From Absidia repens (lineage: Eukaryota > Mucoromycota > Mucoromycetes > Mucorales > Cunninghamellaceae): a DNA stretch of 64,000 bases. Location of the stretch: the NCBI GenBank assembly GCA_002105175.1, contig MCGE01000022.1:248001-312000 (forward strand). The letters are read 5' to 3'. The notes under the pieces were generated by a model. That model was not told the DNA's origin and ran no database searches. It was given only the letters and a program-made list of their open reading frames with translations. Below are positions 13,940 to 57,386 of the stretch, in pieces. Each line of letters begins with the position of its first letter. The stretch's first letter is position 1. The translations under genes were made by a program, and so were the position numbers.

Positions 13940-14660
13940 AAATAGTCATAATGGGTGAATTGCTCAAAAAACCAACTACAGTGACAATATTATTCACTAT
14001 CTGATGTGTTCGAATAAAAAAAGTCATATTTTATTGAGGCATATTGGCAGATATGTTAAAACTAAAGGTGTGAGGCTCATTGTAACAGAGGTATCTAATT
14101 GAAGGATATATTGCAAGAAAGCATGAGGGGGACTATTGGGAGAAGGAAAGATTGATCAACACTAAACTAATGACCTGTTTGCAAAATGGAAATGACGGAC
14201 TAATAAATTGTACTGTGCAAGACATGAGGAAGATTGAGAGGAATATCTTTTTATTGAAACATAATGAATCAAGAGGTGATGGATAAAAACGTATCCATAG
14301 TACAAAGTATAAGAGAGATTAATGGAACATGTTTCATTGAAGCAAGTAGAAGTAGGCAGATTTTATTCAGTTGTAGAAAACTATGGGCAAACTAACACTA
14401 AACTATGCTAATGCTGACTTCAAGCAGCCGAACTAATGGTAGTTCTAAATCCTAGATCCAAAATGAAAGAATTTCCCCATACATCTTGTCATCTCTGAGC
14501 TAAAAACCTTTCTACACTAGTCCTAACACTAATCTACGTCCTCCAGAACCCTATAGGAGTCACAATTGTGAAGAATTAAAGAAAAAAAAGAAAGAGAGAA
14601 AAAAATATAAAAAAGTTGAGGGTCAATTATATCACATTTGCGGTGTTTGAAATCTAAAAT
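13940..14660 (-). repeat. Dispersed AT-rich repeat family, copy B (reverse)
   Basis: Read on the minus strand it follows copy A closely: ATTAGTGTTAGGACTAGTGT, then GATGACAAGATG, TTTCATTTTGGATCTAGG, CACTAAACT/AGTTTAGTG blocks, CAACTGAATAAAAT and CTTGCTTCAATGAAAC. Its left part (13940-14040) matches the 3' end of copies C and E. There is no ORF. Confidence 0.7.
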
Positions 14661-31009: not shown

Positions 31010-31720
31010 GAGTTATTGTAGCCTAGAATATCATTCGGCGTTTCATTATGTTTGTTCCGTATGGATACTAGCGACGCGATAAAATAAAACAGCAGTAATC
31101 AATTTGTAGGATATATCAGTATCATTTGAGTATATTTTATTCAAGAAATGTTAAAGCAGGGTCAAGTAAGATACCTCGACTACTTAAAAAAGAAAGGTTT
31201 TAATTTAAGCGGAACGGAGTGCATAAAGAGGACATGTTGGGTGAAAATACAGTAGCGCAAATAGAGCTAGTTAACGCCATTCTAATAAAAATAACAGCAA
31301 TATCAAAAAAAAAAAAAAATCGACAACATTTTCAAGGATTAACTAGATGGTGATAGTATTATAGAGATAATAGACATGTTTTATTTACATATGATCATAT
31401 AAAAGAAAGAAGATGGGAGGGATGGGTCTATTCTAAAGTCGGGAGCTTGATCTACTAAAGGTCAAATAACTACAATAATGAGAATTAAATGGTACAAAAC
31501 ATATTTTATTCGGATATGTATGTATAAAAACTAAGGCAATGAATAACAAGCTAATCTAACAAAGGTTCCAGGACACTAAGCTAAGGCCTAAGACTAATCT
31601 AACGAGTGGACCAAAATCATAGAATCAAAATGAAAGGGTTTCCCCATGATGTTTGTATTGCAATTTCAAAATGCCTCTGATTCAAGTTCTAACCACTAAT
31701 CCAGTATCACCAGCACCTAA
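31010..31720 (-). repeat. Dispersed AT-rich repeat family, copy D (reverse, diverged)
   Basis: Read on the minus strand it has several modules ending in GAATAAAATATG-like words (near 31515, 31390 and 31140). It also shows CCTTTCATTTTGATTC, TTAGATTAG, CTTAGCTTAGTG and AACTAGCTC blocks shared with copies A-C. It is more diverged than the others. Confidence 0.55.
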
Positions 31721-33109
31721 GCTTTAATGAAGAAAAGAAAAAGGAAAGAAAAAGGAAAAAGGGTGAAGACAAAAATAAATAAATAAAAACACCGTATGCG
31801 GAGTATGAATGCTGTCACCGTCAACGAGGGGAAGTCCCTATCCAATCCATCATATCATACATTAACGAGAAATACTGATATTCCCCTAATTAACATTTTA
31901 CCAATATTAGTATATAACACAATGATAAATTCCTATACTACAGTATTATATAAAAAAAAACAACCCACCATTGTACATATGTTTGTTTAAAACTCATGGG
32001 TGACGATACAAAAGTCGGTTTATGTGTATCATATGTACATCGGTGGGGACAGTCTTGTGCTTATAGCATATGTAATATAAAAAACTATGCATTTATATGT
32101 ACCAGAGTCACATTTGATATTCAATGACCGTAGACCATGATCGTTCGACTAACGTGATAGAGAAGAACAAAAGAATTTTCCAAACCGAACGAGACTACTC
32201 AGTCGACAAGTTCAAGGGGCAAAGACTTCCTTTGCTGACTCTCAATAAGTGTGGTATGGGGACTGATCGTCAAAACCATATAAAGGTGTAACATTGGAAA
32301 CTCATTGAATAATTGAATGATTGTATGTTTGTTGTTAAAGGCGAGAAAAACCCATCGAATGACATTTTTTTATATATATTATTTACATAAAACAGTCATC
32401 TCAAAAAAGGGGGAAAAGGGGGTAATGAGGATGTTATATGACATCATCCCTATTTAGTTGTGATTTACCATAAAGAACCAATCGATGGGTCATCAATGCA
32501 CAGAACAAGGTAAGGAAGGTGGCACAATTAAGATCTCTTGCTTTATTACTCAATCATTGTAAATATATAAAATTGAATCAGGTCATTTTAAACAAAAAAA
32601 AAAGCCGGGGAAAAGGGATTACCCGATTTGGAAGCCATAAAAAAAAACCATCCACTTTGGAAGGGTGATTATTATGAATATACCCAAAAAGTATCATTAT
32701 ATATTTTTTGCCGTCGAATTCTATTTCATGATGAAGAAAAGAGAATTGCTCCCACTGTTTAGTTATTATGTTTTTACATAATCATCCCATCTTCAAAAGA
32801 GGGATAGACTGTGGTTAGATAATTCAACCCACCCCATATTATTATAATGACCAAGGTGCATTGTCGTACCTGAAGAAAGAGATTTCATAATAAATTGAGT
32901 CATTAAAAAACAGATCATCCCCCCTCCTCCTTGGGTCCTTTATACTCTTGAAATTGCTGTCATGCCCAATCATCTGAGATCTGACTTGAAAAAAAAGAGT
33001 TGTGACAGAAAATAATCATAATGGTAATATAATTATGTAAACGCACCCATTCTTTTGCAGAAAGCCGATGAGGAGGAGGAACCTCATCAATGACTTGCAG
33101 TTTTTTCTC
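31721..33109. other. Long AT-rich intergenic spacer
   Basis: No exon or RNA gene is recognisable over about 1.4 kb. The open frame at 31796-31990 is unsupported. The right end is the chitinase upstream region. Confidence 0.45.
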
Positions 33110-33182: not shown

Positions 33183-34965
33183 ATGAAACTTGCTTTCTTA
33201 GGTGGTCTTCTTTTTTCAGCAACCAGTGTACTTGCATCACAAAGTCTTGTTGGTTATTTCCCTAACTGTAAATGATCATTCAAACACACATGTACCCCAA
33301 CAATCGATGCTCATCATCTTTTTTTTTTTTTTAAAATAATAATAATAATAATAATAATACTGCAGGGCTTTATGCGAAATATCCAGTTAGCAAGATTGAT
33401 TTCAGCAAATATACACATATCAACTATGCGTTTGCCATTCTGATCAAAGGTGCCACACCGGAGTATACAGATCCTCAACAAGTCGATACGCAATTACCAG
33501 AGCTTGTCAAGGCAGCCCATGCTAAAAACGCCAAGGTGCTGGTGTCTGTAGGCGGATGGTCAGGTTGTCTTACATTTAGTACCATGTCAGCCGATGCTTC
33601 TCAACGTAAAACATTTATTGATTGGAATGTGGATCAAGTTAAAAAATATGATTTGGATGGCATTGATATTGGTAAAAAAAAAAAAAAAAAGTCTTTTTTT
33701 TCCTTACCCCTGAAAAACCATTTCATCTCCGACGAGGTGTGCCTAATTTTTTTTTTTTTTTTGTAATTTCAATAGATTGGGAATACCCTGGGGCTGTAGG
33801 AGCTGGATGTAACGCGATGGATTTGGAACATGATTACAAGAATTATTTGAAATTACTACAAGAATTACGTGCTGCTTTCGACAAGTCATTTGCGAAGGAT
33901 AGAAAAGAAATCACGATTGCTTGTCATGTGCGTACCTTCAAAACCCCCGATGGCACCATGGACGATGTGTCTGATTATGTCAAAGTCATTGATCGATTCA
34001 ACTTGATGACGTACGATATCAATGGAGCTTGGAATGAAACCTCAGGTCCCAATGCCCCCTTCAATTTCGAACCTGGACTTGGTGATGCCGATAGTTTTGT
34101 TGCTTCCATCAATACATGGATGAAAGCTGGTGTACCTGCCTCGAAAATCGTTCCTGGTCTTGCTTTCTATGGTCGTTCTTCAAGTAAGTCACTAATTGCC
34201 CATGACTCCAAAAAAAAAAAAAAAAACTCATCCCCGCCTTTTTTTTTTTTTTTCTTTCTTATTTTGCTGATGACAGCTTCCAAGGTAGATATGTCTAAAA
34301 CCAACCAATACCAAAAACAAGTGGCCGGTTCTCCACCTTCTGGAGACTCCTTTGATGCATACTGGCAAGATCCTTATTGCTCCAAGGACCCTGGTGGGCT
34401 TTCAGGTGTATGGCGCTATGGCAATCTGCGCTCCCAAGGTGTCCTGAGCGATCCTACCACGGCCGCCGCGCCCTGGATCCGCCAATGGGACAATGTGACA
34501 CAAACCCCATGGTTGTTTAACCCTAAAAGCAAGACATTTATTTCTTATGATGATCCTAAATCCATTGGTATCAAGACAGATTATGCACTTGACAAAAACT
34601 TGGGTGGGCTGATGGTATGGTCGGTGGATGAAGATAATGGTGAATTGGTGACAGTGGCTGCCAAGATTTTGAAAGGCAGTAGCAAAGGTGGCAAACATTC
34701 TCCTACTACTACGGCATCTGGCAAGAAACATGGGGAGAGTGGTTCGGGCGCCAAAGCCACGGCTTCTAGCAAACCCGCTGGTACCGCTGCACCCAGCTCC
34801 TCTTCTTCTTCCACCCATTGTGACGCAAAAAAATGGAATGCGGATACCACTTACCATAAAGGAGACAAGGTAGCTTACAAGAAGAAAGTCTATAGCGCAG
34901 GATGGTGGAGCCAAGGTGAGAAACCGGGATCCTCGGATGTATGGACAGCTGCTGGCGACTGTTAA
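33183..34965 (+). CDS. Secreted GH18 chitinase with C-terminal CBM5/12-like module
   Basis: Exons 33183-33267, 33366-33671, 33776-34183 and 34277-34965 give 495 residues. A clear signal peptide (MKLAFLGGLLFSATSVLA) precedes a GH18 TIM barrel. The catalytic motif DxxDxDxE is DLDGIDIDWE (about residues 124-133, Glu133 the acid), rebuilt exactly by splicing. VLVSVGGWSG is the SxGG motif, and LMTYDING and LGGLMVWSVDEDNG are substrate-site strands. After a Ser/Thr/Lys-rich linker, the last about 45 residues (WNADTTYHKGDKVAYKKKVY, SAGWWSQGEKPG) match the small chitin-binding CBM5/12 fold. The protein hydrolyses beta-1,4 chitin in the wall or in food sources. A poly(A)-like AATAAA lies near 35047. 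Confidence 0.95.
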
Positions 34966-40151: not shown

Positions 40152-42286
40152 ATGGAGTCAGTTGAAGCAAGAACGCCGAAATATATGGTGTATTGTGTCT
40201 TTGTGACATGTATCACCTCTTTATCTTTTGGCTGGGTAGTTGGGTAAGACCAATCAAAACCGTAACAACAACAAAAAAGGATAGGTTTTATTGACAGAAA
40301 CTTTATTTATATATATATATTGATGTAGATCGCCCAATGTGCCCGGTGAAATCACACATAATTGTCCCACTGGCAACGCTCGACTCGGCAGCAAAACGTT
40401 TCCGGATTGTTTACCCATGTCTACCTTTTTATGGTAACCTTCTTTTTGTCCATGACATTTTTTAATATATATATATAGATATTTACTGATCTTTCTTTTT
40501 TTTACGGTATTGGGTGACGTCAGGGCATTTTCAGTGGCATCATTTTGTCTTGGTGGACTTGTAGGTGGACTTAGTTGTGCCTTTTTCCAAACAAAATGGG
40601 GCCGCAAACGAACGATCATGTTAAGCAATGTGGGATTTGTGGTTGGCAGTGTTTTGATAGGTGTATCTATTGTCCCAGGCATGTTTATTGCAGGCCGTAT
40701 TATTTGCGGTCTTTCTTGTGGTGTATGTTCCTTGGTGATTCCAACATATATTGGGGAAATCTCTACGATCCGCGCACGTGGTGCAATGGGATGTTATCAT
40801 CAGTAAGTAATAGTTAATACCTCTCAAGGAGGAAGGAATGAAGGACGCAAACTAACTAAAACTTTTTTTTTTTTTTTTTTTTTTTTTGGTGGTGGTGGTG
40901 AAAATTAGATTCTTCCTCGCTCTTGGTATCTTTTTATCCACCTTGATTGGTATGTTTTTGGCCCATGTCCCATTATGGCGTGTCAACTACGGACTTGCTG
41001 GGTTACCTGCGCTTATCCAAACAATTCTCATGGTGAGCTGTGTGGAATCCCCACGATGGCTGATCTCGGTGAACCGCATTGACGATGCCCATTATGCGTT
41101 GCAAAAACTCCGCGGCTCCTGCTCGATTGATCGCGAATTCTACGAAATGGTCGCTGGTCAACTTGGTGACGCAGCTGCCACAAGTGCATTGAAATATCTC
41201 AACATCGGGACAGCCTTTGCGCCCGCACGTCATCATCGTCCTTCCATGATGTCTGGACAAGCAACCTTGGTGGAACAGCCTCCTCTGAAGGAAAAAGAAG
41301 GACTTGAACAACAACACCCTCATGATAGTAACAACAACAATAACAACGATGACGATGACAACAATGACGACGATGACGAAGGAGATGAACGACGACGTCT
41401 GGACTCGAGTTTACCACCGAATGAAAAAACGCGCGATCGTGACGACTTGGAGGACGACGACGGCGACGACGAAGCGGATGACGATGACCAAAAGGATGAG
41501 GAAATGATGGGTCCTGGTGAAAAGGAACATCCCAAGGAACAACAAGTCAGTACCAAGCAGGTCTTTTCGGACCCCGTGATGCGACGCATGGCGTTGACGG
41601 TGGTGGGCCTTCATGTATTGCAAGCGTTTGTGGGCCTGAATGCGATCTTCTTTTATAGCTCGATGGTGTTTGCAGCTGCGTACGATGACCCTCATATGAC
41701 ATACACCATGGCGACGGTGGACACGGCGGTGTTTTTAGTGATGACGGTGGTGGCAGTCGCACTGATGGATCGCATGGGTCGACGTCCACTGTTGTTGATC
41801 TCGTTGGTGGGCGTGACAATCTTTTCGGTGGTTGTGTTTTTGGGTGGCCTTCTTCATTTGCCGGCGCTCATGGTGGTGGGTGTGTTGATGTACATGGCTA
41901 TGTTTGCCGTGGGCATGCACCCGATCCCATGGCTGTTGACGGTTGACATGTGCCCCACGTATGCGTCATCCACCATCGGCGCTGTCTCTGTCACCGTCCA
42001 TTGGCTCGCCAATTTTGTAGTCACACTCTTCTTTCCTGTCGTCTTTGCCGCGATCCAGGCGTACACCTTCCTGATCTTTGCCGGCGTCGGCCTCATTGCC
42101 CTGGTGTTTACTTGGGTTTATGTCCCTGGTAAGAAAAAATAAAAAAAAAAGAAGAACGATGGGGACAAGCGAATTTGGATAGAATAACTAACTGACTGAT
42201 TTTTTTTTTTCATCGTGGTTCATCCAGAAACCAAAAATCGATCCATCGAATCCGTGGTGCGGGAATTTGAAAAATATCGACGCTAG
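40152..42286 (+). CDS. MFS sugar transporter with a long acidic cytosolic loop
   Basis: Exons 40152-40243, 40329-40433, 40524-40802, 40909-42128 and 42228-42286 give 584 residues. It belongs to the sugar-porter family (12 helices). Motifs: GRKR after helix 2; GRIICGLSCGVCSLVIPTYI; ESPRWL after helix 6; QAFVGLNAIFFYSS in helix 7; DRMGRRP; and PETKNRSIE after helix 12. The last exon begins within PETK, which fixes the splice. The start MESVEARTPKYMVYCVFV puts helix 1 at once. The loop between helices 6 and 7 (about residues 286-375) is extended and almost entirely Asp/Glu/Asn/Lys. The substrate is probably a hexose, at the plasma or vacuolar membrane; neither is decided by sequence. A poly(A)-like AATAAA lies near 42368. 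Confidence 0.9.
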
Positions 42287-42584: not shown

Positions 42585-43385
42585 CATACTGAGTGACTTG
42601 GAGAACAAGTGTTTGGTGTAATATTTACAAAAACAGCTACAATAGCGACATTGTTCACTATTTGAAGGTGGGTCAGAATATGGTAAATAATAAAAAAAAG
42701 GAACATATTTATTAAAAATATATTGGTAGATACTAAAACTAAAGTAGAGAGGGCTCATTGTAAGAAAAAAATTAAATGGAATGGTGGTGGGTGGGGAGGA
42801 TCTATTGGAAGAAAGCATGAGGGATGGACGAAAGTGAAATTTGAAGAATGGAAAACATATTTTTTCGAACGGTATAATAGTAAAACGGGAAGCAATATAA
42901 TGTATATACAGTTCAAAGCAGAAGAAGGAGTAAAGAGGCGTCTATTATTGAAGCATTACAACGTCGAAGAACCTTAAAAGGGCAAGATGTAAAAACGGGA
43001 ATCTACTGCACAAGGCATGAGAGAAACTACTGGGACATTTTTTCATTCACTGAAGCAAATAAAAAGAGACATATTACTTTTATTCAGATATATATGCGAA
43101 CTATGGACAAACTAACGCTAAACTAAGCTAGTGAAGGCTCCAAAAAACAGTCAACCAATGGTATTTCTAAATCCTAGATCCAAAATGAAAGGGTTTCCCC
43201 ATGCATCGTGTAATCTCTGTTCTGAAACCCCTTCTAATCTAGTCCTAACACTAATCTAAGTCGACCTTAACCGAAGCCACAATGGAGAAGAATTGAAGAA
43301 AGAAAGAAAAAAAAGAGGAAGAAGAAAGAGAGCGAAAAAATAAAACGTGAGAGAAAATAAAATCACATGTGCGGAATTTAAAATG
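42585..43385 (-). repeat. Dispersed AT-rich repeat family, copy E (reverse), next to the Fanzor gene
   Basis: Minus-strand reading gives, in order: CCGCACATGTGA, a CT/T-rich tract, TTAGATTAGTGTTAGGACTA, AGAAGGGGTTTCAG, ACGATGCATGGGG, CCTTTCATTTTGGATCTAGG, CATTGGTTGACT, TTAGCTTAGTTTAGCG, GTCCATAGTT, then TAGTATCTACCAATATATTT, TCGCTATTGTAGCTGTTTTT and an end near GTATGAC. It starts about 290 bp downstream of the Fanzor stop codon and has the same orientation as that gene. Confidence 0.75.
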
Positions 43386-43673
43386 TTCCTCGTCTCTCGG
43401 AAGAATATTTTTGAAGGATACAGCTTGGCTTTTCAACTTGAATTTGAGACGGAGTGTAAAATGGTTTTAGACGATGGCAAAATAAAGTTGGGAAGGGAAG
43501 TAAAATAAATTGGGATGAAGGGAAAAGGTAATTGGGACAGGAGGCAAAAGTAGGTGAGACAAACAGGTGAACCAAGATGAGAGTAAAGGAAAGTGTGAGT
43601 CCAAATGAAATATCTTTGTGTTTCATTTTCTTGTAACTTACGTGTATACATCAACACATATTTGTTATGTGGA
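43386..43673 (-). other. Fanzor 3' flank: candidate guide-RNA (omega-RNA) region
   Basis: This is the sequence just downstream of the Fanzor stop codon on the minus strand, before the dispersed repeat begins. In TnpB and Fanzor systems the guide RNA usually comes from the 3' end of the gene and its flank. I cannot show a conserved fold by eye, so this is a location-based proposal only. Confidence 0.3.
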
Positions 43674-44594
43674 TTATTGTTCAGTGGTCGGTCTTGCCAA
43701 CAGCCCAGGGCGTCTTCCAGCAGTGACAAGGTTCATAAAAGCGGCGCGCAGATTCCGAGATGCATTGGTGTCCCGTTGCCACACAGTGTTACAGCGACGA
43801 CACGCTAACACTGCGTACATACGTTTCGCCTGTTCACCAGGTCGGGTAATCACCGAGTTCGTGAGCTTTCTGTGACCACATTTTGAGCATACTTGCGACG
43901 TACGATATTCATCCATATTCACAAAAACAAGTTTCCCAGACTTGTCCGCCTTTGACAAAAGATGTCGACACTTGTCAGCAAGGGATCCTTCGCCTTTTTT
44001 ATTTCTGCCGAACTTTGCGTCGCCGAAAACCACAATCGGTACCTTGTCTTTGTCATTGTTTATGGGAGCCTTTTTCCATTTCCTATGTATAAGAAATATG
44101 TTCAACAAATGTTATTATGCCTTGCATATACATTTTTAAATCAAATAAACTTGCCTAAGCTTCGGCGGCGGTGGAGGAAGAGGAGGTGAATCGTCAGTAT
44201 CGTCAGACCTTGTTCGTCGTCGTCTTCTTTGTCGTGTCTGGCCAATATTTGAAGATCTTTCCATGGCACCTGGTGGAGGTCTGTACTTGTAGCCGCCATC
44301 AATCAACACATTCACCAATTCGGCGTCCATCTTTTGTCTTCCTTGGTAATTGGCGAACTCCAGACCGAGAATAGCCTCTTGCCCATAAAATTCCGTCAAA
44401 GGACCTAGCGCTTGTAATGATGATTGAATGTATGCCTGTATCCCTTCCAAATCAGTGGTTTTGTTTGTCGTTATTTGCGCCTCCACAGTACGAATTGCAT
44501 CAGTTTTCAACATGTTGATTTTGTTGGACGTTTTTCTGAAGCCTGCACGAGTATAATATTCGATAGAGGATATACGTCGAATTTCATGACCTTA

Positions 44595-44626
<32 letters not shown>

Positions 44627-47600
44627 AAAAAAGGTTAGAATGTCGTCTGTCTGCCATTAGATGTCCTTTTCAATTACTCTCTTGTTCGTGGTCAGTATCG
44701 ACTTGAGCATCAGCATCAGCGTGGGCGGCATCATCAGCGTGGGCGGCATCATCAGCGTGGGCGGCATCATCAGCGTGGGCGGCATCATCAGCGTGGGCGG
44801 CATCATCATCTTGGGCAGCATCATCATCTTGGGCAGCATCATCAGCGTGGGTGGCATCATCATCTTGGGCAGCTCCTAGCAACGATATTAGTAAATAAAC
44901 CAAAGAAAAAAAGAAAAAGTCAATACATAAACAATAGTTCTTGTAGAAAACCACCATAGCCACTTACCCTCCTGTTCCACTGCGTAATTGTAAACGTCAT
45001 CACTTGAACCATTGCTAGCCACATAGATTGAATTCATCCCAGGATCTACACCCCACACATTCAAATACGGGAATTCCCACGCTTGGAAGTCTTCAGGTAG
45101 CAAATCAGGAAGAGTAGCATCGTTTCGAATCGGTTTGTCGAAGGGGATTGATACAGAGAATCCGTTCGTCACGATGTACTTGCAAATATCATCCCATTCC
45201 CTTTTCTGATTTTGTCAACGTTGAGGATGTTCGTCAATGTTTCATCGCCATGGATATATTGTGTGAGGCCCACTGATCGAAGGATTTGCCCCATGGATGT
45301 ATTGTCGATTTTTATGCTTTTCTTTGTGTAGGACGGTTTCGGCACCAAGTTGTAAACTTGTTGCTTTTTCATCAAGTGATCGACTCCAGGTGTGAAGCAT
45401 CTTGGTAACAAATCCTGGTGGTGTTCAGGGTCCTGTAAGTATTCAACAGAATGAAGAATTTGCTGGCGAGTGTTGGCGATGGTGTTTTGTAGGGATGTAA
45501 ATGACAAGTCCGACAGGTACGATAATTGTTGGCGGTCAAGGTTGTCGTTTGTCGGTATAATTTGTTGTATTGTTTTTGCCAATTTTGACCGTCGGCGTCG
45601 ACCTATTCTTGAGTTATCATCAAGTCCACGTACTACTTCAAAGCACCAAGTGCGAGGAACTACGGTCTGTACTGGGTTTACTGCATTTGCGGTGTCGATA
45701 TTGTGTTGGTCAAAAGCGCGGACAATGTTATAACCATACTTCGTGAAGATATCGCAATGGCGAGAAATATATGCAGTTGACAGTTGCGTAGTCGAATTGT
45801 CTAGCAATGTTGCCGGTGCCCCCGCCTGTTGACAATAGTTGATCAAATTATTCAGCAAATGACGATTTCCAAGTTGATCGTTGTCGAAGTATTGTCGTTG
45901 AGCTTCCAAAAATTGGCGATGTGGGTTGGTGTATGTATCCTGACGAGCGCCGAGATCATCAAGTAAGGGCCGTACCTCCATAATAGCAAGATCCAAGGAG
46001 TCAAGAAGTTCTTGCGTTTCCTGGTTGATGTTATCTGCGCCATCCACTTGCTGTTCCATCATCGTTTGCAAAGATGTCATCACACCGTTCACCATGCTGT
46101 CATTCCATCGTTCGTCGTTTAGCTGGTGTTGAAAACCGAAGTGATTTGAGACATTCAATAGCAATTGGGTTGAAGCTTGGTACAGACGAAGCAGTTCCTG
46201 GAGTCTGGTGGATAATTGGATCAAAGAGGCAACAATCGTGGGATCCATGGCTTCCGCTACTTCGGTTGACATTGTTCCAATTCTTGAAATAGTGATTGTG
46301 ATGACTGACCGAAGGCCGGTTTCCCTGTTCATGATACGTCCATGAAGAACACCGTATGCATTTTCAACTTCTTTTCCAAGTGAATCAGTTTGTTCTTGTA
46401 GAGCAGCCATATTATAAACACACAAAAGGTCCACTTTCCCATCATCTAGTACAGCATTTACATCGTCTTTTATTTCGTCAGTAATGCCAGGTTGAGACAA
46501 AGCATCAGAAGACTCGATTGCAATATCCGCATTGTTGACCAGACTTGCTAGGATGTGAAGCCCCAATACGTTGCAAGTTTTTTTCAATCGAATCCTATGA
46601 ATACAATACATGGCGGTAAGTATCAAACATTGACCTCTGTATACTTTTATTGTATTGTATTACTTACCTTTTGTTGTTCCTGTTCTAATATTTGTTCTTC
46701 AGGATCCTGCTGCTGGAGAAGTTGCTGTTGCTGTTGTTGTTGATGCTGTTGGTTCTGGCGTTGCACCATTCGCTGACGAAGACGTAAAGAAAATAAATTT
46801 GACATCCACTGCGTAAAGTCCTCAACAATTCGATTTGTAAATTTTGTCGCATATTGGGCCAACATTGGAGTCAGAATATTCGCATACGCTTTTCCATGAA
46901 TTTTTCGTACAAGAAAAGCTTGTCGGGACGCTTCTGTTGGATTCAGTTGCTGATACACATTGTCGATATTCGTCGCCAAATCCATGCTGATTGAATTGTT
47001 GATGGTGATGTTGCTGCCAGTGACTTGTTGAAAGATAGCATAAAAAAAACTCATCGTAAAGAGCTGTTTTGGTATGGGTTGGTGGTTCGTCAAAGAGTGA
47101 TATAGATAAAATGTAATAAATAGGTGCACTTTTATGACTGTATCCCGAGTGTACGAAACAACGTCGCTGATTCCCTGTAGAATTTGTTGATGATGATCCT
47201 GGTTTTCAATCCGCAGCAATGATTTCAGTCCCTGTTTCCGGCAAACCGTCGTCGTTTTACCCAATTCTTGTTGTACTTGTTGTAGTCGAGTCTGTTTCCG
47301 GAAGGGGCATTTTCGATTTGTTGATCGTGAATGAGTGGTTGCTGTTTCAAAGCTACGATGTTCAAGGCAAACCGGGCAAGAACGGACTGATTGCTTTTGA
47401 CCAAGTTTTTTTCGCATTAAAGAGCCACCCCGTTTGGCCACCTTTTCGAGAGTACCTTGTTTGCGCTTACGCTTGGACCCAGCTAACTGTCTTGAAGTTG
47501 AGCCGCGAGTTGATAATGAGGAGGCATCACCGTCGCTGTTATCACTGTCGGTGTCATCATCGTTTTCCGCACGTCTTTGTTCACCTTCAGCTTTTTGTGT

Positions 47601-47822
47601 AAAAAAAGAAAGATTAGTAAGATTACCTTGTTTCTCATACTAATTTGTTTAGCACTTACCATGACGCAGGTTCGCTTGCTGTCGTTTCCACCGTTTTTTG
47701 TACATAATGATATCAAAAACTGTCATTCCTTCATAAGTTGTTAGGGGTTGAATAACATCATCCTGTGTCATATCCATCAATCTAAGCAAGTCATCCTCGA
47801 TAATCAATTGATTGGCGGCCAT
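43674..47822 (-). CDS. Fanzor-type protein (eukaryotic TnpB-like RNA-guided nuclease), frame breaks present
   Basis: Minus-strand exons 47822-47660, 47590-46668, about 46597 to 44968, 44875-44678, 44590-44155 and 44082-43674; about 1250 residues. The catalytic core is C-terminal. RuvC-I is WGVDPGMNSIYVASN (Asp codon 45044-45046). HEIRRISSIEYYTRAGFRK follows an acidic linker. VVFGDAKFG is at the RuvC-II position, then DEYRTSQVCSKCGH (Glu codon 43908-43910), a zinc ribbon CxxC...CRRC, and RuvC-III QRDTNASRNL (Asp codon 43770-43772). The FGD sequence at the usual RuvC-II Glu position plus a conserved downstream DEY Glu fits the rearranged active site reported for Fanzors. The N-terminal part has a basic, CPVC-containing region and Gln runs. 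The intron 44083-44154 is GC-AG. Two joins are not in frame: near 45202-45205 one A seems missing, and the 46668/46597 junction is off by one. It may be inactive. Confidence 0.8.
44701..44875 (-). repeat. 18-bp tandem repeat coding an acidic linker in the Fanzor gene
   Basis: The forward unit GCGTGGGCGGCATCATCA occurs five times almost perfectly (about 44718-44808). Variants with TCTTGGGCAGCATCATCA follow on the right. In the gene frame it encodes (H/Q)-(A/D)-D-D-A-A repeats between RuvC-I and the next core exon. Confidence 0.9.
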
Positions 47823-48317
47823 ACTGATGATAGGGACCTGGAGGTATTGGTGTTTGTTAAAAAGAAAAGAAAACAAAACGCTGTTGCGGCTAAATTTGTG
47901 ATTTTAGTCCAACTGGATTGTTCCTTGGGCGGAATTTGAAATATCTTGTTCCTGAATCGGACAAAAATAGAATTGAGAGTAGTGAGCACCAGAACTTTTG
48001 TAGATAAAGTCCAACTGTAGAGAAAGTTTATAAAAAAATAAACTTGGAAGAGTAAAATAAAATAAAAAAGAAAAGTATTGACCTTTGTTGGTTCAATAAA
48101 AATAAGTGTATAACACACAGTAAAAATAAAAAAGAGGACTTGTAGTCACAAAAAATAAAAGAAAGTTTCTATATAGACGATAGAAACAAAATAAAAATAA
48201 GACAGTGGTTTGGTGGTTAAAAGCCTTTGTACTGAATTTTATAAAAAAGATTGAGATAAATATATGATAATAGATAGCTTAAGAAAAAAGAGAATTGGCG
48301 GGGGAAAGGTGGGGTAT
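47823..48317. other. Upstream spacer of the Fanzor gene
   Basis: It is AT-rich with many short A runs and has no recognisable gene. It probably holds the promoter of the minus-strand Fanzor gene. Confidence 0.45.
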
Positions 48318-48646
48318 TTATACTAAAAAATAAAGTGGCGGCGAGTGCCGAACGTGATAAAAAAATATAAAAATAAAAATGATGATCGACCAGTATCCTA
48401 GACCGGATAGGAAATCAGCGGCTTCCTGTTTTCGTCCAGTTCGATACTTGATTTCAAAGTCATATTCAGCCAAGTATTGGATCCATCTTGCTACAATGCC
48501 AGATACTTTGGGTGATTGTACCAACCATCGTAAAGGTGAGTGGTCTGATATGACAGTGAATTTTTTGCCAAGTAAATAAGGCCTGAATAGTTGCAGGCTC
48601 CATACTAGGGAGAGACATTCCAATTTAGTAGCACAGTAGTTTTGTT
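48318..48646 (-). pseudogene. Ty3-type retrotransposon RNase H remnant
   Basis: On the minus strand an open frame reads QQNYCATKLECLSLVWSLQL, then FRPYLLGKKFTVISDHSPLR and YDFEIKYRTGRKQEAADFLS. This is the connection/RNase H part of Ty3-type polymerase polyproteins. The first catalytic Asp region and all reverse transcriptase motifs upstream are absent, and an in-frame stop precedes the fragment. It is a truncated relic, not an active element. No LTRs are recognisable around it. Confidence 0.85.
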
Positions 48647-48779
48647 GTCAATGGAAGATTCAGTTGATTTATATTTTTACAAATATACCCCAATCAGCCA
48701 ATAGAGGAAGATATTGTATGAGTCATCTTTTTACAAACACCCCATTTCCCCTCCTCCCCGTTCATACGAGTATTCACAA

Positions 48780-48995
48780 ATACAACATGTCTACTGTGAG
48801 TATTTCTCTTCCACAACACAACGCTACTATACCCTACAAAGCAATATAATACATACTCTACAAAAACAAATCAACACATACCCTACAAACAACACAACAT
48901 ATACCCTACAATATATAACAACACATATTCCTCAAAGAATAGTATATTTAACACGAAAACAACACACGTATTCCACAAAAACAGCGTACACAAAT
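48780..48995. repeat. Degenerate minisatellite, ACACATACCCTACAAA-like
   Basis: About nine imperfect units of roughly 20-25 bp contain words such as TACCCTACAA, CATACTCTACAAAAACA, ACATATACCCTACAA and CGTATTCCACAAAAACA. It is not coding. Confidence 0.65.
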
Positions 48996-49253
48996 ATTTT
49001 TTCAAATGTGATTTTCTTTATTGCAGTGATATGATAAAATAGACGGTAATAGTGAAATAAGAGACAATATATATACTGTATAGTAACATATAAGAGATGA
49101 AGAGGATACTAACATTGCCTTCAACAAAACAGTACACTCATACTATTCTCTTATAGCACAACCACCCCTGCTTCATACTGAAATGCTGCTGCGTCCGAGG
49201 TGATAATGGCATATCTTCGCTTCAGGAAGCTCCCCCAGAAGCTATTTAGTGGT

Positions 49254-49255
<2 letters not shown>

Positions 49256-49307
<52 letters not shown>
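49256..49307. repeat. T homopolymer, 52 nt
   Basis: It is an uninterrupted T run. About 150 bp further right is an A34 run (49457-49490), so the two form a possible inverted homopolymer pair. Confidence 0.95.
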
Positions 49308-49455
49308 CTGAAGTAAAAATGTGGAGGTGTTTCGAATGTTGCGTACAAAAAAAGAGACAGGTAACATCATCATCATCAAACAAAAAAGTCATTTGGTTGG
49401 TTTCAATAGAAGATAGATTTTATTTATTTGTAATACCACAAGAGTACATACCAGC

Positions 49456-49456
<1 letters not shown>

Positions 49457-49490
<34 letters not shown>
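49457..49490. repeat. A homopolymer, 34 nt
   Basis: It is an uninterrupted A run between CCAGCC and CAAAGTCC. It could be the tail of a retroposed sequence on the plus strand or simple slippage. Confidence 0.95.
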
Positions 49491-49491
<1 letters not shown>

Positions 49492-50479
49492 AAAGTCCTG
49501 ACTGAGCGCTGAACAACGACGGATGGGCCCCAAGGGGCTGCCCACCAAAGTGCGAAAGGGCGGAGGCTTTAATCCTATCCCATCAAAACCCACACTTTAA
49601 TAAAAAAAACTGTGACACCCAGTCAATGGAAAGATTTCCAAAAGCTCCAGCGGAGCGCCAGAGCGTTTATTAATTTAATATACTTAAAGAAAGAGGGGTA
49701 AACCATTAGGCACGCAAAAACATATTGGGAGAGGTGTCTTCAAAAAGAGATCGGTTTAAAATAAAATATACGATTGTCTAAACCATATTATCATTTAGTC
49801 TAAACTACGTTGAATAAAATGTCCAAAATTGAAAGCTAAATCGTCTCGAGCGGAGTTTATTCTCGTCTAAAAAAAAAAAAAAAAAACGTCTCAAGTTCAA
49901 CCGGAAAACCTATATTTTTTTTTTTCTGATAGTAGCCCGACTTTAAAAATATGGAAATTCCCAAAATTGTCTCAGATACCATGTCACATTATAGGCGTCC
50001 ATTGCTATCCCATTCATTTCCCATGAAAGTAATTGGTGACATGAGTGGATCGACTGTGTGGAAATAGGACCACGTATGAGATATCTCTAGAGTGAGGTTT
50101 AAGAAGCAGTCTGTGATTCATGCAGTAATAGACGCATAAAAAAAAAGGTTATACAGAATAACTGCTATAGAAATATTTTGAGACTTTTCTATTGTTGGAT
50201 CATGTCCTTGGCACTTACATAAAACAATCTGTGCGCAGGAAATTGTCAAAGGTATGTGGATGATGAAGATATTAAAGACGAGAAAATCAATACAGCATGC
50301 ATATATAATAACACACATACAGTACAGTTCATATGTCACATAATACTTGTGCATATGCATAAATTTTGGTGGACCGTTTTTGTTTCAGAGGAATTAATAT
50401 CATACATACATCCCATTCGCAATTTTTGGACTCTTGGTAGTATCAAATCATGCCCAATCCAACATACATACTCAATTTA

Positions 50480-50854: not shown

Positions 50855-53800
50855 TCAATGGGTGGGTGTAGGAGGGGCAGAGTTAGAGAAGGGGGGTGCA
50901 GGGGGCGTGGGTGATGATGTGGTAGCAGCAACGGTGGCGGTGGTGGAGTTCGAAGCAGAGGGTTTGATATGGAATAAACGAATATGAGTAGCATGCCAAG
51001 GAGAAATAGCCTGAGGGGTTTGTAAGTATATATGAGCCCATAATGCGCTAGAGACACCAACAATAATCGGTTCCGACCATGGTACGGCACGTAATCCGTG
51101 ATTACCATTAGCTGAGGCTGACGCCAACGAAGGCGGTTGTAAATCCATGGTTCGAATGGTATCCAAAGCTTGTCTTTCACCGACTTTTTGTATCACAGGT
51201 AGTACCCTATCCGTCACGGCCAAAATGTAATCCAAGGCATGGGTCCATTGCAGTCGCCAACTTTCCAGCCATTCATTGTCTGGGTTGAACCCTGTGGCAG
51301 CGGGTGAAGAAGGCAGTGAAAGCGTGGACGATGAGGATGCTTGGCGTTGGGGCATTCTTCTTGCTGCTGCTACTGATGTGGACGACGAGGAGGAGGCGGC
51401 TGCACTTTCTTCCGGTCGTTTTCCAAGCGCCTTTTCTGATACCGTCGCATCGTCGCTGGTGGTGATGTCGTCGTCGTCATGAATGGTAAACGTGGCGACA
51501 GTGGGTGATGATGATGCTGACGACGCTGATCGGAGGTTCAAAGGGCGTTGTTGCTGTTGTTGTTGCTGTTGGCGTTTTCTTGTCATGTCACTCAATGCCT
51601 GGTCCAAATCAAGTTCACTTAGCCGTTCGAACTTAATATGGTTGCGTACAATACTACAGATCAAAGCACCATTTTCTATACAACCACATCCAAACAAAAA
51701 GGAATGAGTGAGTTTGTATGATGACCAACAAGAAAGTTTGTTATTTACCTGAAGATTGATATCGAATCACATTCTGGAAAGCTTCCAAGAGATACTGTAC
51801 CAATGCCGGGTTATTTTGATCTGCCAACAAGAATCCAGGGGCGGAGAACGAGCCAAAGAGGGCGATCCATTTGCCAGCCGCGGGCGCCGAGATATATTTG
51901 AGGTAAGGTGAGATATTGGTCAACGTGATGATCAAAGAAGGGTACAAAATGGAAAGATGACCTCTTGAGGTGGCAATCAAATTGAAGATGGACAGGATCA
52001 AAAAGTCAGCATACGAGCCGGCAAAAGCGGGATCGGAAGGAGGTGGACGAATACTGGAAGGTAAAGATGCATGGCCCTGGAAAGGTTTATTGAGTTTGGT
52101 GCCAAATCGTCGATCCGTACTTAGCGTTTGCAATACAAAAACACACATACGCACAAAGCCCAATTGTGAAGGATCTAATTTGTTTTCCATGGCATGATAA
52201 ATCAATACAAGCGTCAAGTCCAAGGCACGTTCGGTTTCCATGAGATAGGCTCGGAAACGCTAAACACGTAGTCACAGCATTAAAAAAAAAAGGAGGTGAG
52301 CACCAAGTAAAACACATACACATATATATGCTAGAAAAACCTACTGGATTGATTTGGGTCAGTTTCCAACACAGCATGGTCATTTCAAAATAGCACTTGG
52401 ATCGTTTACTTGAAGCCGGCAAATAAGTGACAAGGCCCTGCATGGGATGACTGAGGGTCCGATAAAATCCATCGATCAAAAACTGGAAATCCTGTGCCCG
52501 ATGAATTTTGGAGAGAAAGTACATAAACTTGTTTCCTTCAGCCGCTGAGATCCATTCCTTTTCCACCGTTGCATAATCATCATTATCACCATTGTGATCC
52601 AAGTCCTTCTCCTGTTGTTGTTGTTGTTGTTGCTGTTCCAATAAGTGAAGCATAGAGGCAGGTGAATGTGTATCCAATAAAAGCAAAAGCACACGGAGAC
52701 ACAAAACCACCAATTGTTCACGGGTATCATTGAATACAACCACTGAGGGGGCGGCACGACCCCAGGCAGAGGGGTTATAATTGCTGGCGGTGTTGATCAA
52801 GCTACAAAGCAACGCCAAGATAATCCGTTTTTCCCGCGTCCCCGACACCAACGAATGTAACCATCGTCCACCCAACCCGCCTTTTCGTAAATACTGTGTT
52901 GCTGGTACATACATAGACTGTGATAAGAGCACTAAGAGTAGGCGCAATACTTCAACACGATGAGATTCGTTGTCGCGGAGTGAGCCAATCGGTGTCGAAC
53001 ATCCAATTCCTGTTTCCCAAATCACATAGTTCACATGCTGTTGCGGTTGATTATTAGTATTGGTGTTGCTGTTGTTGTTATCATCGCTTTTGAGTGTTGG
53101 TGGTAATGTAAACCCAGCAAGAAACAAACTTCGTAAGGTCACTATGGTAAGAAAAATAAAAACAAGCATTAGCCTTTTTTTTTTTTTGGTCATTGTACGG
53201 CACGGTCAGTCATCTTCAATAAACTTGCATGATAATAACAATTCGCCACGTGATGGAAGGGTAGCATCTTCACCATTAGCCTAGTAGAAACCGAAAAAAA
53301 AGGAATATGAATCAATTTGTTTCACCCTAAACACTAAGACGCTTGTTGTTTACCTGCTGTTGATGATCATTGTTGGCCGTAGTAGCGCTGCTGTTCTTAG
53401 TCACAGATCTCCGAGTCCAGAAAAATGTACGTTCCCATTCATCATCGTTTTGCTCGTAAAGAAAAGGTATAATCCGGGTCAACACACGGCAGCAGTTGAG
53501 TAAATGAAGTGTCGAATAATGAGGTGAAGGGAAACTGGGTTCGTGTATCAGTTTATCCATTTGTTGTAATATCTACAATAAGAGGTATCAGTTCACCCAA
53601 TACCAACCATGACCTTGCTTCAATAATATCTTACCTTGTCGACCAACGTTTCAATATTTTCCCTAGTTGTATCACGAGCTCGTCGTATATCACTTGCACC
53701 TACAAGCGAAAACACATCATTGACTGATTCCGGTAGTGTCCAAAACTAGATGGGAGCGAAAAAAGGCGTTGGTTGCGGGTATAGATATTTTCATTATCAT

Positions 53801-55317: not shown

Positions 55318-57386
55318 ATGATCAGCGAATACCGAATGAAACTCCGTTCCTCTTCAGCAAAGCGAAAAGCCGGCGAGCTTTGTGGTGAAGACAATGACCA
55401 TCAACAAAATGCAACGGCAGAAGCGTCAGAAGCGCAGCTTTATTTACATGGAAACCGAGAACCAAACGACGGCTCTGCGGGTCTATCTGACGACGATGAC
55501 GGTGACGATGACGGCGACCAAAACCAACCCGTTCCTCGTTATGCAGCATTATTCGACGACGAAAGCGACGAAGCTGACCAAGATGATAATGATGATATCT
55601 TACGAGCGGCGAGTGACGATGATATCTTACGAGTGACACCTCCTCCACCTGAAATCCCCAGGACACCTATCGATTTGAATAGTATCTTTCCTCCTTCTCC
55701 TTATGGGAAATCCAGAGAACCAAGAATTTATGGCGATAGGTAAGTTTTTTTTTTTTTGTTTTTTTTTTTTCGTATCAATATGATGAAGGAATGGTGGTTA
55801 ACCCGTTCTCTTTCTAAATAATAGATTTATTCCTCTTCGCGACCCCAACCTAGTACACGATTACAACATGCATGAACCTCCATCACTCCGCAACCCTCGG
55901 CACCCATCTCAGCAAACAGAAGAAGAAGCCGCTCGAGGTAAGCACCTTTTATTTTTATTTTTATCCAAACCCCATTCCTTCCTCTTTTTATTAACCGTGC
56001 TTCTTTTTTTTTTTCTTGTTGGCAGACTTACATGAACGACGAATGTTCCAATTTTACCGAAGCGAAGTACTACATGCTCCCGACACCGTCCAGAACTTCA
56101 TTGAAACCGAAGCTGATATTGGTACCAACCATGTACGTACCCCTCGTCGTTTATACAAATACTCCTCCCCTCGTGCTGAACATCGACCTTTACCACATGC
56201 TTCTGGCTCCTCCTCCAACCATCATCCTCATGTCTACCCGAATCATCATCACCACCATGCACGCGAATCACCCTTCCTCAACGCCTCTCCCATTAGCGAC
56301 AACGGTATCAAGATTATGAATGCATTACAACGACCTACCCGATATGTCAACCGTACAGCGATTAAGATTCTCGATGCACCGGATCTCCAAGACGATTTTT
56401 ACCTGAACCTTGTGGACTGGGGATCGGACGACTGTTTGGCGGTAGGCTTGGGCACCTGTGTGTATTTATGGGACGCCAACACCAGCCGAGTGACGAAACT
56501 CTGTGACCTGATGGACGATACCAGCAATAATGATGATGGCGATGGCGGCAGCAACGGCAACAACAAGACACCACATTCTGATCCGGAACAAGTGACATCG
56601 GTGAACTGGGCTCAAGAAAGTCAACATTTGGCCATTGGCACGAACAGGTCGCGTGTATTATTATGGGATGTCAAGGCGAACCGCAAACTCCGTAGTTGGC
56701 ACAATCATACGGCTCGTGTGGGCTCTTTAGCCTGGAATCGGAACATCATGACATCTGCAAGCCGTGATCATCACATCTTCCACCACGACGTCCGTTCACC
56801 GGCACCGTACTTCCGGGATATGAACGTTCACACGCAAGAGGTATGTGGTCTCAAATGGAGTCTGGATGGATCGATGCTGGCGTCGGGCGGGAATGACAAC
56901 AAGCTTGTGATTTGGAATTCTCATGAAAATATGGCGCTGCATACCTTTGGGGAACATACGGCTGCTGTGAAGGCCTTGGCCTGGTCACCACATGAACGTA
57001 GCTGTTTGGTCAGTGGAGGTGGAACTGCCGACAAGACCATCAAGTTTTGGAATGCACAACGTGGAATGATGTTGGATTCTTATGATACGGGTTCTCAGGT
57101 GTGCAATGTCGCTTGGTCCAAACGGTCGCAAGAAATAGTGTCTACTCATGGCTTTGCTAATCAACATGTCTCCTCCTCCAATCAAGTCATTGTCTGGAAT
57201 GCCAAAACCATGCATCGCGTCGCCACCTTGACTGGTCATTCAAGTAGGGTCCTATTCATGTCCATGGATAACAGTGGTAGCACCGTCGTTACAGGCGCTG
57301 GTGATGAAACCTTACGATTCTGGGATGTCTTTGCCGGTGTGGAACCTCCAAGGAAAGAAATCAACAAGGTGACAACATTACGTTGA
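55318..57386 (+). CDS. APC/C activator Cdh1/FZR1 (fizzy-related WD40 protein)
   Basis: Exons 55318-55739, 55825-55937 and 56026-57386 give 631 residues. Cdh1 binds the anaphase-promoting complex and recruits substrates for ubiquitination at mitotic exit and in G1. The C-box DRFIPLR (residues 140-146) is rebuilt across the first intron. AIKILDAPDLQDDFYLNLVD, then AVGLGTCVYLWDANTSRVTK start the WD40 propeller, and these are Cdh1-type rather than Cdc20-type. Seven WD repeats follow, with degron-receptor sequence around GGNDNKLVIWN. The usual C-terminal Ile-Arg tail is Leu-Arg here, a conservative change. The N-terminus is long and very acidic (Asp runs), and an Asn/Gly/Asp loop interrupts the first blades. 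A poly(A)-like AATAAA lies near 57560. Confidence 0.94.

Follow-up and report, generated by a model that had tools for sequence, protein, structure and literature searches.

An oversized Fanzor1 gene of Absidia repens in what is probably a disabled, non-autonomous Tc1/mariner-type transposon

The gene and its long N-terminal part

The 64,000-nucleotide stretch of Absidia repens DNA analysed here (the window) holds a six-exon gene on the minus strand (47822-43674), of Fanzor1 type and coding for about 1,250 residues, which lies within a mobile element. The features of the locus are as follows.

42989..43390, plus strand: R400, an abundant dispersed repeat adjoining the element; insertion context, outside the element
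43419..43420, unstranded: left TA target-site duplication, found in 12/12 copies with a left end (window and L009 to L019); none in L020
43421..49912, unstranded: whole mobile element, 6,492 bp, non-autonomous Tc1/mariner-like; unit common to the copies by BLAST, ends read
43421..43451, plus strand: left terminal inverted repeat (TIR), outermost bases altered in the window copy
43421..43673, minus strand: 3' noncoding end, candidate omegaRNA scaffold, positioned by analogy with published Fanzors
43674..44082, minus strand: exon 6, with the RuvC-II strand, relocated Glu, C4 zinc finger (PF07282) and RuvC-III RD
44155..44590, minus strand: exon 5, with REC2-like helices and a poly-Arg and poly-Pro loop; GC-AG donor
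44678..44875, minus strand: exon 4, an acidic Ala/Asp/His tandem repeat inserted after RuvC-I
44968..46594, minus strand: exon 3, with the middle region, WED with T(D/N)G and RuvC-I DPG; holds both frame disruptions of the window copy
46668..47590, minus strand: exon 2, with a basic/NLS-like stretch, CPxC...C motif, conserved N-terminal domain and Gln run
47660..47822, minus strand: exon 1, start codon at 47822; Halteromyces P0006 matches start and exon
47918..48373, minus strand: LTR-like repeat, Ty3/Gypsy-type; candidate promoter of the Fanzor gene
48376..48647, minus strand: RNase H fragment of the same Ty3/Gypsy-type retroelement (PF17917, E 6e-18)
49702..49764, plus strand: final 20 codons, with the stop codon, of a Tc1/mariner-type transposase, at the right end of the element
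49887..49912, minus strand: right TIR, ends read
49913..49914, unstranded: right TA target-site duplication, found in 7/7 copies whose right end was readable

The first-pass annotation took the gene for complete, but its frame is broken twice in exon 3 by single-base disruptions near 46.6 kb and 45.2 kb, so that, unless the assembly is wrong there, the window copy is unable to make the full protein. Neither disruption occurs in any of the 10 other aligned copies. Frames are unbroken in 4/11 aligned copies (4/10 without the window copy), which encode 1,233-1,251 residues with their exons joined in one frame, and the exon 4 repeat differs in length from copy to copy. Both the disruptions and the repeated-transposon setting had been missed by that annotation.

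Relatives of the same family, with 33-60% identity in the covered parts, are found in Cunninghamella blakesleeana (P0001 and P0002), Halteromyces radiatus (P0006 and P0003) and Absidia cylindrospora (P0005); a literature search found no paper naming the Cunninghamella, Halteromyces or A. cylindrospora proteins. Cunninghamella and Halteromyces share the long N-terminal part, which is thus conserved and no artefact. The large extension that had been claimed is therefore real, although 878 residues, rather than about 800, precede the RuvC-I Asp (residue 879 of the joined protein of copy L009). Fanzor1 proteins mostly have 600-700 residues (PMC11423790) and at most about 800 (PMC10711439), a range that is descriptive rather than defining and outside which the intact copies fall. 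Compared with SpuFz1 of Spizellomyces punctatus, about 515 more residues stand ahead of the shared WED stretch.

NLS-like and CxxC motifs of this part also occur in P0006 and P0001. Searches of the N-terminal region against Pfam and NCBIfam gave nothing credible, and the conserved N-terminal domain had no credible match in the PDB; PF26935 is a precomputed domain of P0001 and P0002. A model in which part of exon 2 is an intron was ruled out by the alignments with P0001 and P0006.

Fanzor1 landmarks

Fanzor1 proteins are characterized by a RuvC-I DPG, a Glu moved to six residues before the zinc finger and a TDG motif in WED (PMC10711439), as well as by a C4 zinc finger followed by RD (PMC3627910). 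The motifs listed in the first-pass annotation (DPG, FGDAKFG, DEYRTSQVCSKCG with a second CxxC, and QRDTNASRN) all lie on the minus strand where it had placed them. DPG is present at RuvC-I in 11/11 aligned copies and in P0001 and P0002. The canonical RuvC-II strand reads GDA or DDA in L009, P0001, P0002 and P0005 and lacks the conserved Glu, while E1174 stands six residues ahead of the zinc-finger C1181, which is followed by C1184, C1210, C1213 and then R1219 D1220 (L009 numbering). All 11 aligned copies agree at the ten key positions compared (D, P, G, Glu, four Cys, R and D), and the Fanzor fingerprint as defined in PMC10711439 is found in these copies and in P0001 and P0002.

The OrfB zinc-ribbon profile, proposed earlier as a check, matches the window at 43749-43961 (PF07282, E 8e-12, 45.6 bits against a cut-off of 26.3), and the paralogue search proposed with it, a genome-wide search with this profile, returned 13 places, the window included. 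Among PDB chains, the family profile ranks SpuFz1 (8gkh) first (E 4e-6) and aligns with its WED, REC2 and TNB stretches in matching order, although stretch by stretch the match is weak (0.9, 6.2 and 17.1 bits and, for the fourth, -3.3; the REC2 part is the 6.2). A single-sequence PDB search gave no match. An AlphaFold model of P0002 from a nine-row alignment has a mean pLDDT of 40.4, with the C-terminal RuvC part below 50; where this poor model has any confidence, the extra 515 or so residues are mostly helical. At the level of sequence, Fanzor membership and the relocated RuvC-II Glu, both claimed by the first-pass annotation, are supported by the family profile, the motif fingerprint and the SpuFz1 profile match.

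Two landmarks vary. The RuvC-I Asp and the Thr-Ser that precedes the zinc finger are spaced 297 residues apart in the L009 protein, above the 125-275 published for Fanzor1 (RuvC-I Asp to [TS][TS]; PMC3627910), and 66 of these residues belong to the exon 4 acidic repeat. The WED TDG is present in P0001-P0004, aligned with that of SpuFz1, and reads TNG in L009 and the window copy; judged by these alignments, TDG is a trait of the family that is varied in this genome.

The element, its copies and related systems

In the common form of the element the TIRs are identical at 21/26 positions. Only the last 20 codons of a transposase remain, so the element is at most a non-autonomous Tc1/mariner derivative. 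A fuller remnant of this tail aligns with the C-terminal end of a DDE_3-bearing ORF, and remnants of the same transposase persist in two short elements (about 750-765 bp) that share the right-type ends. No full-length cognate transposase was found in the assembly with the short element and its 133-residue transposase remnant as queries, and none of the 7 left-type matches, among 23 end matches, lacked the Fanzor gene. The Ty3/Gypsy-like LTR fragment just upstream of the gene may serve as its promoter and contains TATA-like boxes at 48322, 48243, 48175 and 48032. Elsewhere the repeat occurs as same-orientation pairs 5-7 kb apart with about 94-95% identity.

Eleven near-identical copies occur elsewhere in the genome. 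The amplification is recent, with a mean divergence of 1.06% among 11 aligned copies. Among these, pN/pS is 0.31 in WED/REC and 0.41 in the C-terminal part, against 1.15 in the N-terminal 160 residues and 1.20 in the repeat (small counts, no test). Variation is about equal in the 3' end (8/241 bases), the coding sequence (132/3,756) and the introns (15/344). The tail of the approximately 400-bp R400 repeat faces the element in 10/12 copies; the insertion points vary between about 518 and 616 of the R400 consensus, eight in one orientation and two in the other, and each has its own TA. Most flanks of the copies differ.

By analogy with published Fanzors, the DNA flanking 43421 on its left, adjoining the candidate scaffold, would supply the guide. 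The Fanzor-sense 3'-end RNA folds weakly (z -0.74 over 275 nt, -2.40 over 77 nt, -1.84 over 137 nt), and its antisense folds better. The window holds no Rfam match at gathering scores and no tRNA.

The SPu-1 element, which encodes SpuFz1 (PMC3627910, PMC10432273), is likewise a TA-flanked inverted-repeat element in which no transposase was found between the repeats, and its product is an RNA-guided nuclease whose fingerprint class is shared by the present protein. However, it is shorter, at about 2.1 kb, and has a single 633-aa ORF and 33-bp TIRs, compared with 6.5 kb, six exons and about 1,250 aa here, and captured retroelement DNA is found in the present element but not in SPu-1. Mariner Fanzor1 elements that lack a transposase, PUl-4 among them (PMC3627910), also carry their cargo between mariner-type TIRs and TA duplications, whereas the present element keeps a readable 20-codon transposase tail and an LTR fragment before the Fanzor gene. 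PpFz1 from Parasitella parasitica, a Mucorales Fanzor1 (PMC11423790), has an extra proline-holding loop in RuvC, which the poly-Arg/poly-Pro insertion lying after the REC2-like helices and before the RuvC-II strand resembles, as far as the loops are compared by description; PDB searches gave no match with the name or size of PpFz1.

According to PMC3627910, Mucor, Rhizopus and Phycomyces have 10, 4 and 3 Fanzor1 families, respectively, on MuDR-type and unclassified elements. These are likewise Mucoromycota Fanzor1 genes on DNA transposons, although the elements compared here have 9-bp or 6- to 12-bp duplications rather than TA. Oversized members may exist among these families, which were compared by element type and target-site duplication. 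A scan of IMG/VR gave 106 pattern matches, none of which was confirmed.

Rival readings and proposed activity

The window most probably holds a non-autonomous transposon of Tc1/mariner type, here in a disabled copy, that carries an oversized Fanzor1 gene. This reading builds on direct observation of the gene structure and its motifs, both ends of the element, what is left of its lost transposase, sister copies with intact frames and a recent amplification. Weighing against it are the failure of the searches to find a full-length cognate transposase in the assembly, a 3' end that varies as much as coding sequence and introns and whose Fanzor-sense RNA folds weakly, the low confidence of the structure model, the weakness of the single stretches of the SpuFz1 match, the broken frame of the window copy and the spacing of 297. 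An unlikely alternative is that the protein is no longer an RNA-guided nuclease and has been retained for DNA binding or for regulating transposition through its basic N-terminal part, its RuvC motifs persisting by descent. The very large extra N-terminal part, whose NLS-like and CxxC motifs recur in P0006 and P0001, and the weak structure of the 3'-end RNA would suit such a role; however, the catalytic and zinc residues are unchanged in all 11 aligned copies and in the two Cunninghamella proteins, and amino-acid change is lower in the WED/RuvC parts than elsewhere (small counts).

It is very improbable, and already largely refuted, that the N-terminal 500-880 or so residues come from a separate gene or from a chimera created by the choice of introns, the actual Fanzor being of ordinary size. 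In Halteromyces this region is split between two annotated proteins, P0006 and P0003, whose numbers are close together and whose contigs have the same length; P0002 begins later (1,037 residues), and one stretch of exon 2 could be read as an intron. Nevertheless, a single C. blakesleeana protein of 1,211 aa aligns over 92% of the length, doubtful stretch included, cutting out that stretch (106 bases) would break the frame, and the exons share one frame in four natural copies. Homing between R400 repeats, where guides from one R400 tail would cut others to be repaired from the element-bearing copy, fits the facing tails in 10/12 copies, but is hardly credible because homology copying would keep one position, while the insertion points, each with its own TA and in orientations 8 and 2, are scattered.

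Under the preferred reading of a non-autonomous transposon with a Fanzor1 gene, a related transposase acting in trans would cut and paste the element at TA sites, and the Fanzor gene would be transcribed from the captured LTR. The protein would bind RNA from its own 3' end, running into flanking DNA, and would cut the TA-containing site emptied by excision; repair of this site from a copy would then restore the element, maintaining its copy number. The extra 515 or so residues would most likely add to the REC lobe where it surrounds the guide/target duplex.

More tentatively, and with the balance of judgement somewhat against it, these proteins could form a giant Fanzor1 clade that has approximately doubled in size through N-terminal sequence and helical REC-like expansion, is expressed from an LTR captured from a retrotransposon and travels on a transposon strongly preferring the tails of one abundant repeat. 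A subfamily conserved at about 1,200-1,250 residues, its catalytic motifs intact and its spread very recent, would reveal how large a eukaryotic RNA-guided nuclease can become. It would also make it possible to ask, with natural proteins, whether enlarging the REC part alters guide/target recognition. The copies are young, they mostly have different flanks, and their donor transposon family is known, all of which suits the family to tracking the contribution of Fanzors to transposon spread. Its members so far come only from Cunninghamella, Halteromyces, Absidia, the present genome and one metagenome sequence, and the size of the protein nears that of Cas12a.

Fanzor gene and family assignment

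By comparison with the Fanzor1 proteins described in the literature covered, the gene flagged in the window is a new oversized variant, and the Tc1/mariner-type element that carries it is young. It runs on the minus strand in six exons:

47822-47660, minus: Fanzor exon 1
47590-46668, minus: Fanzor exon 2
46594-44968, minus: Fanzor exon 3
44875-44678, minus: Fanzor exon 4
44590-44155, minus: Fanzor exon 5 (GC donor)
44082-43674, minus: Fanzor exon 6

In L009, a sister copy in the same genome, the six exons read as a stop-free protein of 1,251 residues, whose numbering is used here. Eleven copies were aligned (the window copy, L009-L012 and L014-L019), leaving out L013, which has a large internal deletion, and the diverged L020. 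Splice dinucleotides are intact in all eleven; unbroken frames of 1,233-1,251 residues are found in four (L009, L011, L016 and L018), and the other seven, including the window copy, are broken. In the window copy the frame is disrupted twice within exon 3, each time by a single base and at places peculiar to this copy. Since both are in or beside short single-base runs, a sequencing or assembly error is possible, and this copy is dead or mis-assembled. Degraded relatives or truncated copies, with stops or missing parts, are also present in the genome (L064 on contig C1, L065 on C24, L020 on C34 and L068 on C38).

The assignment to the Fanzor family, made at first from sequence landmarks, is borne out by the profile and paralogue searches then proposed: PF07282 matches the last exon over the cut-off (E 8e-12) and is found at 13 places across the genome, one of them in the window. 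The landmarks themselves (DPG, a Glu six residues ahead of the zinc finger, four Cys and RD) are unchanged in 11/11 aligned copies; DPG together with the relocated Glu is the published fingerprint by which PMC10711439 marks Fanzors and the bacterial proteins most closely related to them. A profile built from L009 and two Cunninghamella blakesleeana proteins (P0001 and P0002) retrieves SpuFz1, the Fanzor1 of Spizellomyces punctatus (PDB 8gkh), as the top PDB match (E 4e-6), as does a nine-row family alignment (E 1.3e-4), whereas a single-sequence search against the PDB gave no match. The WED (TDG), REC2-helix and TNB stretches follow an order common to the family profile and SpuFz1, a match that is strong by whole-sequence E only, its stretches being weak (0.9, 6.2 and 17.1 bits, with a fourth at -3.3). 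The WED motif is TDG in P0001-P0004 and TNG in L009 and the window. According to PMC3627910, 125-275 residues separate the RuvC-I Asp from the Thr-Ser before the zinc finger in Fanzors; here the spacing is 297 residues, pushed outside that range by an acidic repeat of 66 residues that exon 4 encodes and that differs in length among copies.

The large N-terminal part

The WED stretch shared with SpuFz1 begins near residue 783, as against roughly residue 269 in SpuFz1 (from alignments, fusion partner subtracted), and the protein therefore holds roughly 515 extra residues. Residues 1-160 bear a CPxC...C motif and an NLS-like run, KRKRK, and are followed by a conserved domain (160-335), a Gln run and a middle region (345-640). 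The conserved domain presumably looks like the N-terminal part that fungal Fanzor1 proteins ordinarily have, in which case only residues 1-160 and 345-640 would be true additions; however, no likeness of this domain to the Fanzor1 N-terminal part was seen in the PDB profile search. Among copies, pN/pS is 1.15 for residues 1-160, 0.54 for 160-345, 0.62 for 345-640, 0.31 for 640-905, 1.20 for the acidic repeat and 0.41 for 971-1251, descriptive values from regions that each hold between 9 and 36 variants.

Relatives were scored among the best 8,000 candidates by word sharing, so that some may be missed. P0001 (1,211 residues) is 35% identical over 92% of the length, and P0006 from Halteromyces radiatus is 57% identical over the conserved N-terminal domain; P0006 and P0003, which have nearby protein numbers and whose contigs are equally long, are taken as a single gene split in the annotation. 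Other parts of the protein are matched by P0004 (metagenome) and P0005 (Absidia cylindrospora). Judged by these nearest relatives, the host is probably of Cunninghamellaceae type. The AlphaFold model of P0002 has a mean pLDDT of 40.4 and a pTM of 0.29; only parts of the middle and pre-WED regions, which are helical, reach pLDDT 60-86, and values fall below 50 nearly throughout from residue 596 to the end. No description of an oversized Fanzor1 subfamily was found in the available text of the open-licence PMC papers listed (including PMC3627910, PMC10711439, PMC10432273 and PMC11423790), nor was a paper found there on a Fanzor in Absidia or Cunninghamella, or on one with an N-terminal extension.

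The transposon and its captured parts

43421-49912: mobile element, 6,492 bp
48376-48647: RNase H fragment (PF17917)
49702-49764, plus: last 20 codons and stop of the transposase that also survives as the short-element remnant (90% identity)

The unit common to the copies, as delimited by BLAST of the window against them, starts at TA|CAG and stops at CTG|TA in most copies, and its two ends, in their common forms, are identical at 21/26 bases. TA is present at the left end in 12/12 copies (the window and L009-L019; L020 lacks that end) and at the right end in all seven whose right end was within the DNA read. Small insertions or losses have changed the outermost bases of the left inverted repeat in the window and L009-L012. 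The aligned copies diverge by 1.06% on average (0.12-1.68%, repeat excluded).

A pattern search of the genome found 23 element ends. L066 (C63:42000-42950) and C67:486391-487158 are short elements, about 750-765 bp long, that carry right-type ends on both sides; the former holds a 133-codon transposase remnant and the latter an interrupted version, and the two probably arose as sister derivatives of the autonomous transposon, now lost, behind the Fanzor element. At its C-terminus the remnant agrees at 15/24 positions with an open reading frame in L069 that carries a DDE_3 domain (PF13358, E 1.7e-28). Since a tail of this transposase lies at the Fanzor element's right end, a Tc1/mariner-type transposon has, most simply, lost its transposase gene and acquired the Fanzor gene. 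No full-length cognate transposase turned up when the short element or its remnant served as query; three relatives at a greater distance, L069 included, have reading frames open over 308-355 codons and could work on the element in trans.

The stretch at 47918-48373 recurs in the genome, with same-orientation pairs 5-7 kb apart and 94-95% identical on C8, C1, C45 and C34, among the matches listed, and for its LTR-like pairing it is regarded as a putative LTR. Both this stretch and the RNase H fragment are in Fanzor orientation, and L014 and L019 hold about 770 extra bases between them. About 95 bases separate the end of the LTR-like stretch from the start codon, and TATA-like boxes are found 210-500 bases upstream; the LTR may drive the Fanzor gene.

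Insertion sites and candidate guide RNA

42989-43390, plus: R400 repeat
4581-4199, 14284-14653, 21494-21129, 31614-31788: other R400 repeats in the window
33676-34965: glycoside hydrolase 18 with carbohydrate-binding module
40856-42142: sugar transporter
50855-53205: Hid1/Dymeclin
55995-57386: CDC20/Fizzy WD40
61118-62278: PPR protein

The protein-coding genes listed around the element are ordinary ones. R400, a very abundant dispersed repeat of some 400 bp beside the element, is about 77% identical to 39 other scored places (40 scored from 3,272 first-look candidates genome-wide). Its tail faces the element in 10/12 copies with scores of 347-489, on the left in the window, L009, L010, L012, L014, L015, L016 and L018, and on the right in L011 and L013, a count that covers every left flank and the right flanks within the DNA read, those of all copies but L009, L014, L016, L017 and L019; L017 and L019 have no R400 on the left. 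Of 60 random 400-bp control stretches, all from this one window, three scored at least 300. The element was probably inserted into the repeat, because the left flanks of L012 and L015 stop at R400 positions 535 and 522 and their right flanks resume at 549-550 with a recognisable tail motif, although the scores of these right flanks (114 and 87) are not above control. Insertion points are scattered over R400 positions ~518-616, and unaligned bases next to the element reach about 50 in L010 and 25 in L018. This scatter suggests that the transposase prefers certain targets and argues against homing by homology between R400 repeats.

The mechanism would follow the published Fanzor model. By analogy with published Fanzors, the 253 bases from the stop codon to the left end, in Fanzor sense, are a candidate guide-RNA scaffold, while the guide would come from the flank to the left of 43421. 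Close to the end, the motif ACTCCGTCTCA is kept in the diverged L020 and has one change in L065. These 253 bases vary among copies about as much as coding sequence or introns, and the Fanzor-sense strand folds weakly, the antisense strand better.

L014 and L015, which have a common left flank, may represent one insertion event, yet the L015 element is closer to L016, L012 and L009; this mismatch may reflect duplication or gene conversion.
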